From an uncultured Bacteroidota bacterium (lineage in GTDB: Bacteria; Bacteroidota; Rhodothermia; Rhodothermales; Salinibacteraceae): a DNA stretch of 64,000 nucleotides. The stretch is taken from positions 1-64,000 of the forward strand of contig CAJXKO010000003.1 of the NCBI GenBank assembly GCA_913055845.1. Reading direction: 5' to 3'. Made by a program: the position numbers and the translations under genes. The notes beneath the pieces are model-generated. The model was given only the letters and a program-made list of their open reading frames with translations. It did not search any database and was not told the origin of the DNA. Within the stretch, counting starts at the first letter, position 1; every line of letters begins with the position of its first letter. Shown here piece by piece: positions 19,702-55,910 of the stretch.

Positions 19702-20346
19702 ATGATTCACACCCTCGAAGTCCGTTGGTTCGGTACACCCCCGCTTCCCCCAGCTCTCCACGAGTGGTTCCAGACTCTAGGCGAGGTGCAGACCACGTCC
19801 CAAACTCATTTGTACCTGCCCGCAGAGGACCCGGCGCTGAACGTGAAGGTGCGAGATGGCCAGCTTCAGATCAAGCGCCAACTGGGCGGTCCTTTCCGAA
19901 AGGCCTTTGGCACGCAGGCAGACGGCCACTGCGAGCAGTGGGGAAAATGGAGCTTCGACCTCGCCGCGGAGCGGTCTGTGCTCTGGGATGATGATCCCTC
20001 AAACCTATGGGTAGCTGTTCAGAAAACCCGTCACCAACTGAAGATTCCCGCCGCCGACCAACCATCGCTTACCGACGCACTTCCGACCACTCCGCCTGCA
20101 CTGGTCGCGGCAGAACTCACAACCCTGCAGGTCCAAGACACCTCGGCGTGGACCTTCTGCGTCGAGGCGGAAGGACCCGTCGAAAGCCTCGTGGAGACCT
20201 TGCTCACCGCCGCTCCCCAACTGCTAAATGATACCCTTCCCTTTTCCCTTTCCCCCGATGAGTCGTACGGATATGTCCGGTGGCTGCAGCAATTGCCAAC
20301 AGTCCATACTCGCCCCGCCTCCGAGATCCAAATTCCGTCCCTTTAG
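19702..20346 (+). CDS. Hypothetical protein
   Basis: 214 aa ORF with ATG after a pyrimidine-rich leader, and a terminator hairpin just downstream. Confidence 0.65.
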   Translation: MIHTLEVRWFGTPPLPPALHEWFQTLGEVQTTSQTHLYLPAEDPALNVKVRDGQLQIKRQLGGPFRKAFGTQADGHCEQWGKWSFDLAAERSVLWDDDPSNLWVAVQKTRHQLKIPAADQPSLTDALPTTPPALVAAELTTLQVQDTSAWTFCVEAEGPVESLVETLLTAAPQLLNDTLPFSLSPDESYGYVRWLQQLPTVHTRPASEIQIPSL

Positions 20347-20369
20347 GCAGGCGGGCATCCCTAAACAAG

Positions 20370-20402
20370 AAAACGCCCTCCAGTGGAGCTAGAGGGCGTT
20401 TT
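20370..20402. terminator. Rho-independent terminator, probably bidirectional
   Basis: aaaacgccctc-cagtggagcta-gagggcgtttt: perfect 11-bp inverted repeat with T-runs on both strands. Confidence 0.85.
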
Positions 20403-20417
20403 GAGTGGTATTTGAGG

Positions 20418-20487
20418 CGGTGGAAGAGGGATTCGAACCTCCGGGTTTCGAGACCGGTGTATTCAACCAGGCTCTACCCATCGGGCC
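20418..20487 (-). pseudogene. Degenerate tRNA-Ser copy lacking most of the variable arm
   Basis: Reverse complement shares AGAGCCTGGTTGAATrCACCGGTCTCGAAA and GGTTCGAATCCCTC with the intact tRNA-Ser at 22194-22282. About 19 nt of variable arm is missing and the acceptor stem no longer pairs. Confidence 0.75.
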
Positions 20488-20542
20488 GAATCTACTCCAC
20501 GGCAAACGATCCACATATCCAGTGATTCTGTGTCTCGCCATG

Positions 20543-21898
20543 CTACTGAGCAACACTGATACGTCTCGTACGGGTGAAGCCGTCTCCATGGACACGCAAG
20601 AGGTACACGCCGCTTGACAACGAGGACGCATCAATCCTCACTCGTTGGGAGTGCCCGCCCGACACGCGCCCCGCGAAAAGCCGGTTTATTTGACGACCAA
20701 GCACATCGTACAGAGTGACAGTTACGTCCCCGCTCTCGCGCGGCGTAAACCGCAGCGTGGCTGTTGATTGGACGGGATTCGGGGCGACCTTTTCAATGCT
20801 GACTGTCTCTTTGGGACGCACTTTAGTTTTGACAACGCTGCTCAAAGTCGTGCTCCCATCCAGATCCTCCTGTAGCAGACGAAAGCGGTGAGTGCCTGCC
20901 GAAAGGTCCTCGACGGTAAATGAGTAATTCTGCGATTCTGCGGTGGTGCCAGTTCCGTCCACCCAACCAACTTGTTCAAAGTTGCTGGAACCTACGGCAT
21001 GTTGGACTGAAAAGCCCGCATTGTTTACTTCGGTGGCTGTCACCCAATTCAGAACGGCGTTACCGCCATCGGTACGGGCCTCGAAGGAGGCAAGCTCGAC
21101 CGGGAGCACCTGCGCTCCGGTTGCCTGCTTCCCAGTCACGGCCGTCCAGTCTTCCGAGTTGCTGTAGAGGGTTTTTTCTCCATCATCGGGAATGAGAGTT
21201 GCCGATACGGTGTCCGGCATGAACCCGTAGATGGCAAAAAACTGAAATTGATCGTCCTCAGAGGTTCCCAGTTGGTCGTGTGGAATGGCGAACTCGAATC
21301 CGGTGTCGTCAACCGTGGTTACGTCGGAGGTATCATCGTAGGCGTATCTACCAGGAGCATCCCCCGTTGACGGCGTGCCGTCCAATGATTCGAGTATAGT
21401 GTCTCCGACATCTTTCACCTTTCCATCGCTGGTACTGTCCCCAGCCGCGTATCCCGCGTAGTCGGCGATGCTAGCAAAGGCCTGTGGAGACTCCGCGTCA
21501 CCTGTGATCCGTACACCAAAATCCGTCTCCATGTCCATCTGCATACTATCGACGAAGGCAAACGGCGAACTGGAGTTTGATCCAGTCGGAAGGGGAGTAC
21601 CAGCCGCGACACCATCTACGCTGGCAGAGTTGATAAATACAACCATTTCGGGGGTATCGGCTCCGGTGTCATTTTCCACCTTTCCTTCAACAGCCACATA
21701 GAGAGAGTCTGGTCCCGCGTAGGCCTTAAGTCCCACCACGCCTCCAGTGTATGAGCCCCCAGGTTCAGGGGGCGACGTGCCCACAAGCAGATATTCACTA
21801 TCGGTCGTCTGACCGTCAACGGTAGGCTGAGCCTCTACGACGGAGGGGGCGCTAAGAAGAATTGCTACAGTTAAGAGGAGAGCCGTAACATTTCTCAT
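20543..21898 (-). CDS. Secreted protein with type IX secretion (type A) C-terminal sorting domain
   Basis: Signal peptide MRNVTALLLTVAILLSAPSVVEA; C-terminus VSIEKVAPNPVQSTATLRFTPRESGDVTVTLYDVLGRQINRLF...GVYLLRVHGDGFTRTRRISVAQ is a typical T9SS CTD. Confidence 0.88.
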   Translation of the reverse strand: MRNVTALLLTVAILLSAPSVVEAQPTVDGQTTDSEYLLVGTSPPEPGGSYTGGVVGLKAYAGPDSLYVAVEGKVENDTGADTPEMVVFINSASVDGVAAGTPLPTGSNSSSPFAFVDSMQMDMETDFGVRITGDAESPQAFASIADYAGYAAGDSTSDGKVKDVGDTILESLDGTPSTGDAPGRYAYDDTSDVTTVDDTGFEFAIPHDQLGTSEDDQFQFFAIYGFMPDTVSATLIPDDGEKTLYSNSEDWTAVTGKQATGAQVLPVELASFEARTDGGNAVLNWVTATEVNNAGFSVQHAVGSSNFEQVGWVDGTGTTAESQNYSFTVEDLSAGTHRFRLLQEDLDGSTTLSSVVKTKVRPKETVSIEKVAPNPVQSTATLRFTPRESGDVTVTLYDVLGRQINRLFAGRVSGGHSQRVRIDASSLSSGVYLLRVHGDGFTRTRRISVAQ

Positions 21899-21999
21899 AA
21901 ATAAATGATTTCGGGGTTTATGGGAGAAAAATAGAAGCAAAGTAGTAGTGTCACTATCGAGCCGTGAATGCAAAGGGGCCGAGGTTCTCTGTCTACCCC

Positions 22000-22021
22000 A
22001 AACCGATACATCAATCGGTTT
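22000..22021. promoter_or_regulatory. Perfect 8-bp inverted repeat upstream of the T9SS cargo gene
   Basis: AAACCGAT-acatca-ATCGGTTT, about 100 nt upstream of the 21898 start. Confidence 0.35.
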
Positions 22022-22156
22022 CTCTCAGCACTCCCCCACGAGAGACTGAATCAATTATCCGAGGGGAACTCATACCTGCATCCGTCGCTGGGTCACGCTC
22101 CTCGCTACCTAGTCGTCCTCCGCCCGCCCATCACAAAAAGTAGCCCAAAAACATAA

Positions 22157-22190
22157 AAACCCCCTCTCAGGAATGCTGAGAAGGGGTCTT
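22157..22190 (-). terminator. Rho-independent terminator of tRNA-Ser
   Basis: Minus strand: accccttctcag-cattc-ctgagagggggttttta; stem followed by a T-run, just downstream of the tRNA 3' end. Confidence 0.8.
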
Positions 22191-22193
22191 CAG

Positions 22194-22282
22194 CGGTGGG
22201 GGAGGGATTCGAACCCCCGGGACCCGTGAGGGCCCTCCGGTTTTCGAGACCGGTGCATTCAACCAGGCTCTGCCACCCCACC
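22194..22282 (-). tRNA. tRNA-Ser (anticodon CGA)
   Basis: Reverse complement GGTGGGGTGGCAGAGCCTGGTTGAATGCACCGGTCTCGAAAACCGGAGGGCCCTCACGGGTCCCGGGGGTTCGAATCCCTCCCCCACCG. 7-bp acceptor stem, CTCGAAA anticodon loop, long variable arm, TTCGAAT loop. Confidence 0.93.
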
Positions 22283-22373: not shown

Positions 22374-22394
22374 TCAAAAAGGCCGTGAAGGCCT
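22374..22394 (-). terminator. Possible terminator immediately after alaS
   Basis: Minus strand AGGCCTTCACGGCCTTTTTG: short GC stem with T-run directly after the alaS stop. Confidence 0.5.
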
Positions 22395-25287
22395 AGGCCC
22401 CTTCCCTCAGTGCCGACGCGACGATGGACGGTACTGCGTTGAGCACAGCGTCCAACTTTTCGGTGTCGCGTCCTCCGGCCGAGGCCAGTGCGGGACGCCC
22501 GCCCCCACCCCCACCCAACCGCTCACCGAGATCGCCAACAATAGCCCCAGCCTGCAGGTCGCGCTCCGAAAGGACGTCGTCGGCCACGGTAGCCACGACG
22601 TAGGCCTTTTCCCCCTCCTCCCCGAGACTGCCCAGTACGCCCACAGCCCCCTCGCCCAATTTGTCGCGGAGCTGCTGCCCAAGCGCCTGCAGGTCGTCCA
22701 TGCTGGCCCGGTCAAGACGACCCGTCACCACGGTGACGCCATTGACGGTCGTGGCATTCTCGGCAATGAAGGTGTCGAGTCGGTCCGCGAGTTGGGCGCG
22801 TCGGAGCTGTTCTACTTCATCCTGTAGCTGGTCGCGCTCACGCTGCAACTCGGCAACCGCATCTGGCAGCGAGTCGGGACGGGACCGAAATTGTCGGCGT
22901 GCCCGGTTCAATTGATCGAGTTCGGTCTCAACATGCTTCAACGCAGCGTCGCCCGCCACCGCCTCCACACGGCGCACGCCCGAGGCGACAGAGCCTTCTG
23001 AGAGGAACCGAAAAAGCCCAATCTCACCGGTGGCGCTGACGTGCGTCCCGCCGCAGAGCTCCATCGAGAAATCAGGGTCAAAGGCAATGACGCGAACTCG
23101 ATCGTCGTATTGCTCGTCAAATAGGGCAATTGCGCCACGGTCGAGGGCCTCGTCGATGGGCACGTCACGGTGCTCCTGTTTCGGGATGTTGCGCTGAATC
23201 GCAGCGTTCACGCGTCGCTCGATGTCGCGTAGCGTATCTGCCTCCAACGCATCGAAGTGGCTGAAATCGAACCGGAGCCGATCAGGCGCCACGAGTGATC
23301 CTTTCTGTTGCACGTGGTCGCCCAGCGTGTCACGAAGTACCGCGTGCATCAGGTGAGTAGCTGTATGGTGAGCGCGGATGCGACGACGGCGATCCGTGTC
23401 CACGCGGGCCTCTACCGGTGCGTCCAGCGCATCTGGCAGCGTGTCGATGGTATGGGCGATGCGTTCGCCCTCGTATTGCGTGTCGAGCACCCGGACCTCC
23501 TGGTCGCCGATGCGCAATGTGCCGGTATCTCCTACCTGCCCCCCCGCCTCTGCGTAGAAGGGGGTCTGACTGAGCTCCACCTCATACTGACGACCGCCAT
23601 CGGTTTCTACCACGCGCAATGCCCGGATTTCTGCATCCTCCACGCGCTCCTGATCATACCCAACAAACTCAGAGGCTTCCCCCTCCGTGATAGCCTGCCA
23701 CGCGTGCACATCACTCTGGTCAACTGCAAAGTCCGATGCTGCCCGGGCCCGACGTTGTTGCCGCTCCATGAGCGTCTCGTAGCCCTCCATGTCCACCTGC
23801 AGGTTCCGCTCCCGAGCCATCAACTCCGTGAGGTCGATCGGGAAGCCGTAGGTGTCGTGCAGGAGAAAGGCTACCTCGCCCGGAAGAGCACCATCGCGGG
23901 CCGTGCGAGCAAAGTCGCGGAGTATCTGTCCTCGATCTTCGGTGTCGACGTACGCCTTTTCCAGCAAGTCCATTGCCCGTCGGTCCTGCTGGAGCTCTCC
24001 GAGGAGCCGATCCGTGACCTCGCCGTCTTTCTCGCGAAAACTGGTCACGTGCGGCGCCACGCGCTCGAAGAACTCGATTCCCGTTCCCAGCGTCTCCAGA
24101 AAGCTCTCCTCCTCCGACTGGATGGCCTCCTCGATAAACTCCTGCTGCTCCACGAGCCCATCGAACTGTCCCCCCATTTTCTCGATGAGGGGATCGACGA
24201 GACGGTAGAGAAATGGCTCCTCGAGAGCGAGCGTCTGGTAGCCGTACCGGACGGCGCGGCGCAGGATGCGACGGATGACGTACCCCCGGCCCTCATTGCT
24301 CGGCATGACACCATCGGAAATGGCAAAGGCGATGGCCCGGATGTGGTCGGCCACTACGCGGAGAGCGATGCGGACACGCTCACGCTCCTCCGCATCGTCG
24401 ATCTGAAGATTGTCGTACCCCTGCACGTCGTCTCGGGGCGAGAGGGCGGCAATGGCCCGCAGGAGCGGAGCGAAAAGGTCGGTATCGTACGTCGATTCTT
24501 TGCCCTGCAGGACCGCCACCATGCGCTCGAAGCCCATGCCCGTGTCCACGTGCTGGTCGTCCAGCGGCTCCAGGGTGCCGTCGGACTGTGCGTTGTACTG
24601 GATAAAAACCAGGTTCCAGAGCTCCATCACCTGAGGATGGTCCTCATTTACGAGGGCGTAGCCAGGCGTTTTCACCCGGTCGGCCTCGGGCCGCAGGTCT
24701 ACGTGGATTTCGGAGCACGGCCCACAGGGCCCAGTGTCGCCCATCATCCAAAAGTTTTCCTTAGAGGGCTCGTAGAGAACACGCTCGTCGGGAAGTGGCG
24801 TGTGCTTACGCCAGAGATCGTAGGCCTCCTCGTCCCTGCCCACCCCGAAGTCCTCATCTCCCTCGTGGACCGTGGCGTAAAGCCGATCCGGGGCCAATCC
24901 CCACCGCTCCACCAGCAGTTCCCACGCCCACTGAATGGCCTCCGCCTTAAAGTAGTCGCCGAAGCTCCAATTGCCGAGCATCTCGAAGAAGGTGTGGTGG
25001 TAAGTGTCGTGCCCCACCTCTTCCAGGTCGTTGTGCTTGCCGGACACCCGCAGGCACTTTTGAGTGTCCACCGCCCGCATGTAGGGACGCTGGCCAGCCC
25101 CCAGGAACACGTCTTTAAACTGGTTCATGCCAGCGTTTGTGAACAGGAGCGTGCTGTCGCCCTCCGGGACGAGCGAGGCGCTAGGAACGATTTCGTGGCC
25201 CTTGTCCTCAAAGAACTGCAGAAAGTCTCGCCGAAGCTCTTCAGAGGTACGGGGGGCATCGGTGGTAGATTGGAGATGCGGGTTCAT
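22393..25287 (-). CDS. alaS: Alanyl-tRNA synthetase
   Basis: RRDFLQFFEDKGHEIVPSASLVPEGDSTLLFTNAGMNQFKDVFLG; second half contains HHTATHLMHAVLR and CGGTHVSATGEIG. Confidence 0.98.
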   Translation of the reverse strand: MNPHLQSTTDAPRTSEELRRDFLQFFEDKGHEIVPSASLVPEGDSTLLFTNAGMNQFKDVFLGAGQRPYMRAVDTQKCLRVSGKHNDLEEVGHDTYHHTFFEMLGNWSFGDYFKAEAIQWAWELLVERWGLAPDRLYATVHEGDEDFGVGRDEEAYDLWRKHTPLPDERVLYEPSKENFWMMGDTGPCGPCSEIHVDLRPEADRVKTPGYALVNEDHPQVMELWNLVFIQYNAQSDGTLEPLDDQHVDTGMGFERMVAVLQGKESTYDTDLFAPLLRAIAALSPRDDVQGYDNLQIDDAEERERVRIALRVVADHIRAIAFAISDGVMPSNEGRGYVIRRILRRAVRYGYQTLALEEPFLYRLVDPLIEKMGGQFDGLVEQQEFIEEAIQSEEESFLETLGTGIEFFERVAPHVTSFREKDGEVTDRLLGELQQDRRAMDLLEKAYVDTEDRGQILRDFARTARDGALPGEVAFLLHDTYGFPIDLTELMARERNLQVDMEGYETLMERQQRRARAASDFAVDQSDVHAWQAITEGEASEFVGYDQERVEDAEIRALRVVETDGGRQYEVELSQTPFYAEAGGQVGDTGTLRIGDQEVRVLDTQYEGERIAHTIDTLPDALDAPVEARVDTDRRRRIRAHHTATHLMHAVLRDTLGDHVQQKGSLVAPDRLRFDFSHFDALEADTLRDIERRVNAAIQRNIPKQEHRDVPIDEALDRGAIALFDEQYDDRVRVIAFDPDFSMELCGGTHVSATGEIGLFRFLSEGSVASGVRRVEAVAGDAALKHVETELDQLNRARRQFRSRPDSLPDAVAELQRERDQLQDEVEQLRRAQLADRLDTFIAENATTVNGVTVVTGRLDRASMDDLQALGQQLRDKLGEGAVGVLGSLGEEGEKAYVVATVADDVLSERDLQAGAIVGDLGERLGGGGGGRPALASAGGRDTEKLDAVLNAVPSIVASALREGA

Positions 25288-25439
25288 CGACGCGGTCAAG
25301 AGTCAGTTCTCGGTGAGCGTGGTTGTATCGTGGAGCGTGGAATAGGACTCTTCGTGTACGGCTGAGTGCAACGAGGATTCCGACACCGGGAGACTGGAGG
25401 GGGCGGCGCCGGACCTCCTGCCCCCGGACGCTGTGAGTC

Positions 25440-54276: not shown

Positions 54277-55050
54277 ATGCTCATTATTCCCGCCATCGAC
54301 ATCCGTGACGGCCGGTGCGTGCGCCTGCACCAGGGGTCATACGACGACGAAACTGTTTACTTCGACGACCCGGTCAAGATGGCGAAGCTGTGGCGTGTGC
54401 AAAACGCTCAGACACTGCACGTGGTGGACCTTGATGCGGCGCGCGGGGAAGGAGCCCACAACCGGGACGTCATTGGCCAGATGTGCGACGCCCTCGATAT
54501 TCCAATCCAGTTGGGCGGCGGCATCCGGTCGATGGAGCAGATTGAGGCGGCACTGGACAGGGGTGTGTACCGGGTCATCCTGGGGACCGCGGCCGTGCGG
54601 TCGCCCGACCTCGTAGCACAGGCGATTGACGAATTCGGCGCTCAGCGGGTGGTCGTAGGCCTCGACGCTCGTGACGGGGAGGTGCGGGTGCAGGGCTGGA
54701 CGGAAGGCTCGGGCCTTGACGCCGTGGAGTTCGCCCGGGACATGGAAGCGCGCGGTGTGCGCCGCTTCATCTACACCGATATTAGCCGCGACGGGACGCT
54801 CGAAGGCCCCAATATTGCGGCCTACCGCACGCTGGGCCAACAGTTGTCGGCGGCTAAGATTACGGCCTCGGGCGGTGTGGGCGAGCACAACGATCTTCTC
54901 GATGTTCAAACCCTCGAGCCCTACGGCGTCGACTCGGTCATTGTGGGCACGGCGCTCTACGAGAACCGCTTCCCCTGCCAGCAGTTTTGGGCGTGGCAGG
55001 ACAAGGAAAACGTGGACCTCGACACGTTTTCGACAGCGTCCCTCCGCTGA
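54277..55050 (+). CDS. hisA: Phosphoribosylformimino-5-aminoimidazole carboxamide ribotide isomerase
   Basis: [67 protein letters not shown]. Confidence 0.97.
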
Positions 55051-55106: not shown

Positions 55107-55910
55107 ATGCCCCTCGCCAAACGCATCATCCCCTGCCTTGATGTCGACGAAGGACGCGTCGTAAAGGGCATCAACTTCGTGGACATTCGCGACGCGGGCG
55201 ATCCGGTGGAGCAGGCCCAGACCTACGACGCGGCCGGGGCCGACGAGCTGGTGTTCTTGGACATCACTGCCACCCACGAGGAGCGCGACATCATGCACGA
55301 CGTGGTGCGCCGCACGGCGGATCAGGTGTTCATTCCTCTCACCGTAGGCGGCGGCCTCCGCTCGGTCGACGATATGCGAGCGATGTTGCACGCGGGGGCC
55401 GACAAGGTGGCCATCAACTCCGCCGCGGTGAAGGACCCGAGCCTTATTGCCCGCGGCGCCGACGCTTTTGGCAACCAGTGCATCGTGGTGGCCATCGATG
55501 CGAAACGGCGCGAGGACGAGGGGGGGTGGGAGGTCGTGATTCATGGCGGCCGCAAGCACACGGGCCGCGACGCGGTGCAGTGGGCCGCGGAGGCCGAAGC
55601 GCGGGGGGCGGGCGAGATTCTGCTCACCTCCATGGATCGGGACGGGACCAAGGACGGCTACGACCTCGACCTGCTACGGGCCGTCACCGACGCGGTGCAG
55701 ATTCCGGTCATTGCCTCCGGCGGGGCAGGTACACTCGAACACCTACGCGAGGGGCTGGTGCAGGGCCGCGCCAGCGCCGTTCTCGCGGCGTCGATCTTTC
55801 ATTTCCGCGAATACACCGTGGGCGAGGCGAAGGAGTACCTCCGCGACGCTGGACTCCCGGTTCGCCCACCCTCCGAAGAATGGACCAGTCGCCATGTCGC
55901 CACCGAGTGA
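55107..55910 (+). CDS. hisF: Imidazole glycerol phosphate synthase, cyclase subunit
   Basis: [74 protein letters not shown] at 55107. Confidence 0.97.

Follow-up and report, generated by a model that had tools for sequence, protein, structure and literature searches.

A secreted-protein gene between an intact and a degenerate tRNA-Ser(CGA) as the probable remnant of a genomic island

tRNA-gene islands and the locus beside alaS

Islands that occupy tRNA genes, as catalogued by Islander, have ends that are marked by a regenerated target and by a displaced fragment of that target (PMC4383910). Partial tRNA genes have also been described as traces of integrated elements, mostly in archaea, where they fooled tRNA finders (PMC9897764). 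In Salinibacter ruber, every genomic island attributed to horizontal gene transfer is described as having tRNAs, repeats, XerD or a phage-related recombinase at its flanks, and most of these islands are given as 22-45 kb in length (PMC6060240).

Here we describe a locus within a 64-kb stretch of DNA (64,000 nucleotides, referred to as the window) in which an intact tRNA-Ser(CGA) and a degenerate copy of it bracket one gene for a secreted protein. Like the Islander islands, the locus has an intact tRNA at one end, a same-strand remnant at the other end and an accessory gene of low G+C content between them, and relatives of this genome carry integrase islands at the same tRNA. It differs from those islands in having no integrase and a single gene left, and in that its tRNA remnant is nearly full-length, with a deletion, an insertion and a terminator, rather than a clean 3' fragment. 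Because both end-marks are present whereas no integrase was found inside, we call the locus a remnant of a known kind and not an island. As in the cases of PMC9897764, a non-canonical partial tRNA would be the trace of an integration, although neither ARAGORN nor Rfam recognizes the copy in the window as a tRNA.

With respect to the islands of S. ruber, the interval is a 1.8-kb remnant, far below the size reported for most of them, and its tRNA-Ser(CGA) site is not named in the consulted passages of PMC6060240. The islands of the group studied here are, like those described in that text, flanked by tRNAs and equipped with a tyrosine recombinase, and two of them (in genomes G010 and G001) include type I restriction-modification genes. 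We take one of the relatives (G003) to be the S. ruber type strain, DSM 13855; the genus name Salinibacter, and with it the shared genus, rests on this assignment.

The duplicated tRNA, its terminator and the gene between the copies

The sole tRNA called by ARAGORN in the window is a tRNA-Ser(CGA) at 22193-22282 on the reverse strand, and Rfam places an RF00005 match of 55.8 bits at 22194-22282, in agreement with the intact gene reported in a preliminary description of this DNA. This near, alaS-side copy, which would be the regenerated target end, is the sole intact CGA copy found in a search of the whole genome. It is followed by an intrinsic terminator (22154-22192, reverse strand).

The same description had placed a degenerate copy in the same orientation at 20418-20487. 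The copy is real, but extends from 20418 to about 20501 (reverse strand). In the whole-genome search, nucleotides 9-49 of the tRNA match it with 93% identity at 20438-20478 (41 bp with 3 mismatches, E 7.8e-11) and nucleotides 68-90 with 91% identity at 20417-20439, so that the displaced segment includes the 3' end of the tRNA. Self-comparison of the window gives a 126-nt gapped match between 20363-20478 and 22149-22274 (E 4e-9) that covers both terminators and is the stronger of just two direct repeats at E<0.01. Since the match takes in tRNA and terminator sequence at either locus, the duplicated unit is the tRNA together with its terminator. The other direct repeat joins 54677-54797 and 55528-55648 (123 nt, 66% identity). 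Each copy has its own terminator, as had been noted, that of the degenerate copy being at 20370-20402 (reverse strand); their distances from the tRNA end, previously described as similar, are about 1 nt and about 15 nt. We also considered whether the far hairpin could be the terminator of the neighbouring gene on that side (ORF214) and rejected this, as ORF214 in the relatives is, read by eye, not followed by such a hairpin; the far hairpin thus belongs with the tRNA copy.

The degenerate copy does not have the properties of a functional tRNA-Ser: it gives no tRNA match with ARAGORN or Rfam in the window, and its long variable arm is deleted. The deletion, seen earlier as about 19 nt between short similar runs, comprises 20 nt between CCGG microrepeats. 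On the 5'/D-arm side, about 16 nt are inserted at 20476-20491, a feature absent from the preliminary description. The acceptor stem (GTGGAG/TTCCAC) has not lost its pairing as previously thought, since six positions can still pair, including one compensatory change from G-C to A-U and one G-U. This compensatory change may mean that the copy was functional for a time or that it came from a diverged source.

The insertion is nearly complementary to the T-arm of the degenerate copy itself (12 of 17 positions) and allows a rod fold; between 0.7 and 2.3% of shuffled sequences fit as well, in a test made after the fit had been seen. It is possible that the insertion was templated by a fold-back. A function of the degenerate copy as a structured RNA was considered on the basis of the rod fold (z -2.75) and rejected, the fit of insertion and T-arm having been tested post hoc, and we regard this fit as a curiosity.

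The single gene between the two tRNA-Ser copies (20543-21898, reverse strand) encodes a protein of 451 amino acids whose first 24 residues, read by eye, resemble a signal peptide. Residues 371-448 (20555-20788, reverse strand) form a T9SS type A C-terminal sorting domain, already recognized in the preliminary description and confirmed here by TIGR04183 (42.4 bits, cutoff 23) and PF18962 (40.2 bits, cutoff 27). The gene has a G+C content of 55.6% (58% at third codon positions, GC3), lower than the 63% of the window and the GC3 of 74% in alaS, which fits an accessory gene. Rather than being conserved in all relatives, its N-terminal half was detected in none of 12 further genomes from the genus, some of them incomplete. 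The 27 genomes searched within the family contain two copies of this half in the present genome and one match of 38% identity in another genus, and 114 genomes of the order add three further weak matches. Searches of named genomes, viral contigs and plasmids gave no full-length relative, and the PDB gave no convincing relative for the N-terminal half; a structure model was too poor for use (mean pLDDT of 54).

The spacer between the terminator of the intact tRNA and this gene (21899-22153, reverse strand) has about 50% G+C and no integrase remnant. It contains a perfect 8-bp inverted repeat, AAACCGAT-ACATCA-ATCGGTTT, at 22000-22021, before the T9SS gene, a place that corresponds to that of the repeats before the integrases of relatives. 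The integrase starts in G010, G001 and contig C5 of G004 (loci L074, L078 and L232) are each preceded by an inverted repeat of their own and a further half-site, and these inverted repeats differ between elements (one example is ATTGCTC-GATTT-GAGCAAT).

An island hotspot at tRNA-Ser(CGA) in the genus

In comparisons of relatives, the tRNA-Ser(CGA) next to alaS emerges as a hotspot for islands throughout the genus. The near flank is alaS (22393-25299, reverse strand), and a conserved protein of 214 amino acids (ORF214; 19702-20346, forward strand) stands on the far side in much of the genus. In seven congeners, both flanks are found on a single contig with this interval between them. Across the genus, the distance from alaS and its tRNA to ORF214 lies between about 2 and 32 kb, the spacings in relatives being about 2.8, 3.5, 3.7, 7.6, 7.8, 25 and 32 kb. 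In G011, the ORF214 homologue is followed by tRNA-Thr(TGT) on a contig other than that of alaS and tRNA-Ser (L081, G011:C84), so the hotspot may not have a constant far flank throughout the genus.

One island at this site is carried by G010, which has an intact tRNA-Ser(CGA) at either end of 25.5 kb of DNA, the two tRNA genes being in direct orientation. A tyrosine integrase (PF00589) directly follows the near tRNA, and type I restriction-modification and SOS-polymerase genes come after it; a 172-bp stretch comprising flank, tRNA and terminator recurs 25.5 kb apart with 85% identity. G003 aligns with G010 on both flanks and is without the insert. An island of 21.6 kb occupies tRNA-Ser(CGA) in G001, with an integrase 66% identical to that of G010, whereas its counterpart in G012 lacks the insert. 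A third island of this integrase family, of 10.7 kb, is found in G004 at tRNA-Ser(UGA). G003 has a decayed integrase start right after its tRNA-Ser(CGA) (L072, about 590-950 on the tRNA strand), which is the remnant of an older island. All relatives hold other content where tRNA, terminator and ORF214 would meet, and in none is the site exactly empty. A low-stringency search of the relatives' loci revealed no tRNA-Ser scars beyond those of the relatives already listed, and the integrase family has no match on viral contigs.

The islands of G001 and G004 turn the usual arrangement around: it is the integrase-side tRNA copy that is cut, at nucleotide 50/51 (G001:C57:151574-151623 and G004:C5:252327-252377), and the complete tRNA stands at the far end. 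In these two islands, the 5' half of the functional tRNA and its promoter would come from the island. A whole tRNA at the end away from the integrase is seldom met in bacteria (PMC8371274).

Origin of the interval and a second footprint at parE

In our view, the interval is probably what erosion has left of a genomic island inserted at tRNA-Ser(CGA), an arrangement that G010 shows in intact form. A tyrosine integrase would have brought about recombination between the chromosomal tRNA and an island that had a tRNA-Ser copy and terminator of its own, with one tRNA-Ser remaining at either end. The alaS-side copy, on the native promoter, would have stayed functional, whereas the far copy, being redundant, would have decayed. 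The integrase and most of the cargo would have been deleted and one gene for a T9SS-secreted protein left, whose transcript now probably ends at the terminator of the displaced tRNA. Several parts of this reading have direct support, namely the duplicated unit of tRNA and terminator, the dead far copy, the accessory gene of low G+C content and the integrase islands adjacent to tRNA-Ser in relatives. That the T9SS gene was island cargo and that decay took the proposed order are inferred. An integrase of this family as the agent of the insertion is suggested by analogy with the relatives, since none of the three related integrases matches the interval, which, in line with the absence of an integrase noted before, has no recognizable remnant of one.

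The duplication of tRNA plus terminator argues for an island remnant, as it recalls the 172-bp repeat of G010, and so does a paralog of the T9SS gene in a similarly built footprint, described below. Other observations speak against it: the interval has no integrase or recognizable remnant of one, the genomes with intact islands are without the N-terminal half of the T9SS protein, full-length relatives were found neither on the plasmids nor on the viral contigs searched, no relative has an exactly empty site, and the dead copy bears a compensatory change in its acceptor stem. Should the interval be an eroded island, a secreted-protein gene can be left in the chromosome by an island that has erased itself.

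The sole close homologue of the T9SS gene in this genome is on contig C6 (69% identity), between parE and tRNA-Lys, together with dinB and a putative broken GDPD lipoprotein gene, a fragment that has no Pfam match and is assigned to GDPD by reading. The gap between parE and tRNA-Lys is about 100-370 bp in most relatives, about 0.9 kb in G001 and G012 and 3.4 kb in G011. In this genome, 4.37 kb are inserted after parE, with a 91% identical duplicate of the final 54 bp of parE at the far end (L151, G000:C6:66736-66789 and 71102-71155). From the far copy, sequence at about the ancestral spacing can be aligned up to tRNA-Lys, which identifies this copy as the displaced host end. The two footprints, of 1.8 kb at tRNA-Ser and of 4.37 kb at parE, are therefore alike in that the paralog is the next gene after the intact target, a decayed duplicate of the target's end closes the stretch and no integrase lies inside. 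With two cases, this pairing may have a common cause or be a coincidence.

The preliminary description, in which neither the hotspot nor the parE footprint appears, had left two readings side by side, an integration scar and a tandem duplication that captured a gene. The first is favoured by the hotspot, the tyrosine integrases and the direct tRNA-Ser repeats of the relatives, and the second is less likely. It would have tRNA-Ser and its terminator duplicated locally by slippage or unequal exchange, with the T9SS gene inserted later by homologous or illegitimate recombination and no integrase involved. The presence of the terminator in the duplicated unit, the failure to find an integrase remnant in the interval and the compensatory change in the dead acceptor stem, as a second working gene might have, are all in its favour. 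However, it explains neither the integrase islands with end-to-end tRNA-Ser repeats at the same site in relatives nor the bracketing of the paralog by a duplicated gene end, and we regard it as unlikely.

A more speculative reading, which we also regard as unlikely, is that this T9SS cargo family moves as an integrase-less cassette to unrelated gene ends (tRNA-Ser and parE), duplicates the end each time and is mobilized in trans by the integrases of resident islands. If one gene family were indeed repeatedly delivered to gene ends without an integrase of its own, this would be a testable route for the spread of secreted proteins, and the parE footprint matters more if it is part of such a pattern; otherwise, the locus in the window is routine genome evolution.

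Both footprints might instead stem from an insertion without any integrase that copied the 3' end of the target, through template switching or through a cassette acquired from a relative by homologous transfer. It would agree with this that the two T9SS paralogs lie at target genes unrelated to each other, in footprints that both lack an integrase. So would the decayed parE end, which differs from the near end at 5 of 54 positions and from the end of the nearest relative, G005, at 10, indicating that the duplication is recent and local, and which was found in no other of the 60 genomes searched. Nevertheless, site-specific islands leave exactly such traces, in which 54 to over 80 bp are duplicated and the near copy is intact and the far copy decayed, and a direct sign of template switching is absent, which makes this origin improbable. 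An assembly artefact is very improbable: the draft genome is in 172 contigs, yet the two tRNA copies, with 3 mismatches in 41 bp, are too different to collapse or be misjoined easily, the same flanks share one contig in seven congeners, and the contig is 94 kb long.

Elsewhere in this genome, on contig C63, a direct repeat of 587 bp with 99% identity is located at genes with T9SS tails, its copies being 3.5 kb apart (G000:C63, L192 6991-7577 and 10514-11100). It may represent a recent duplication, gene conversion or an effect of assembly.
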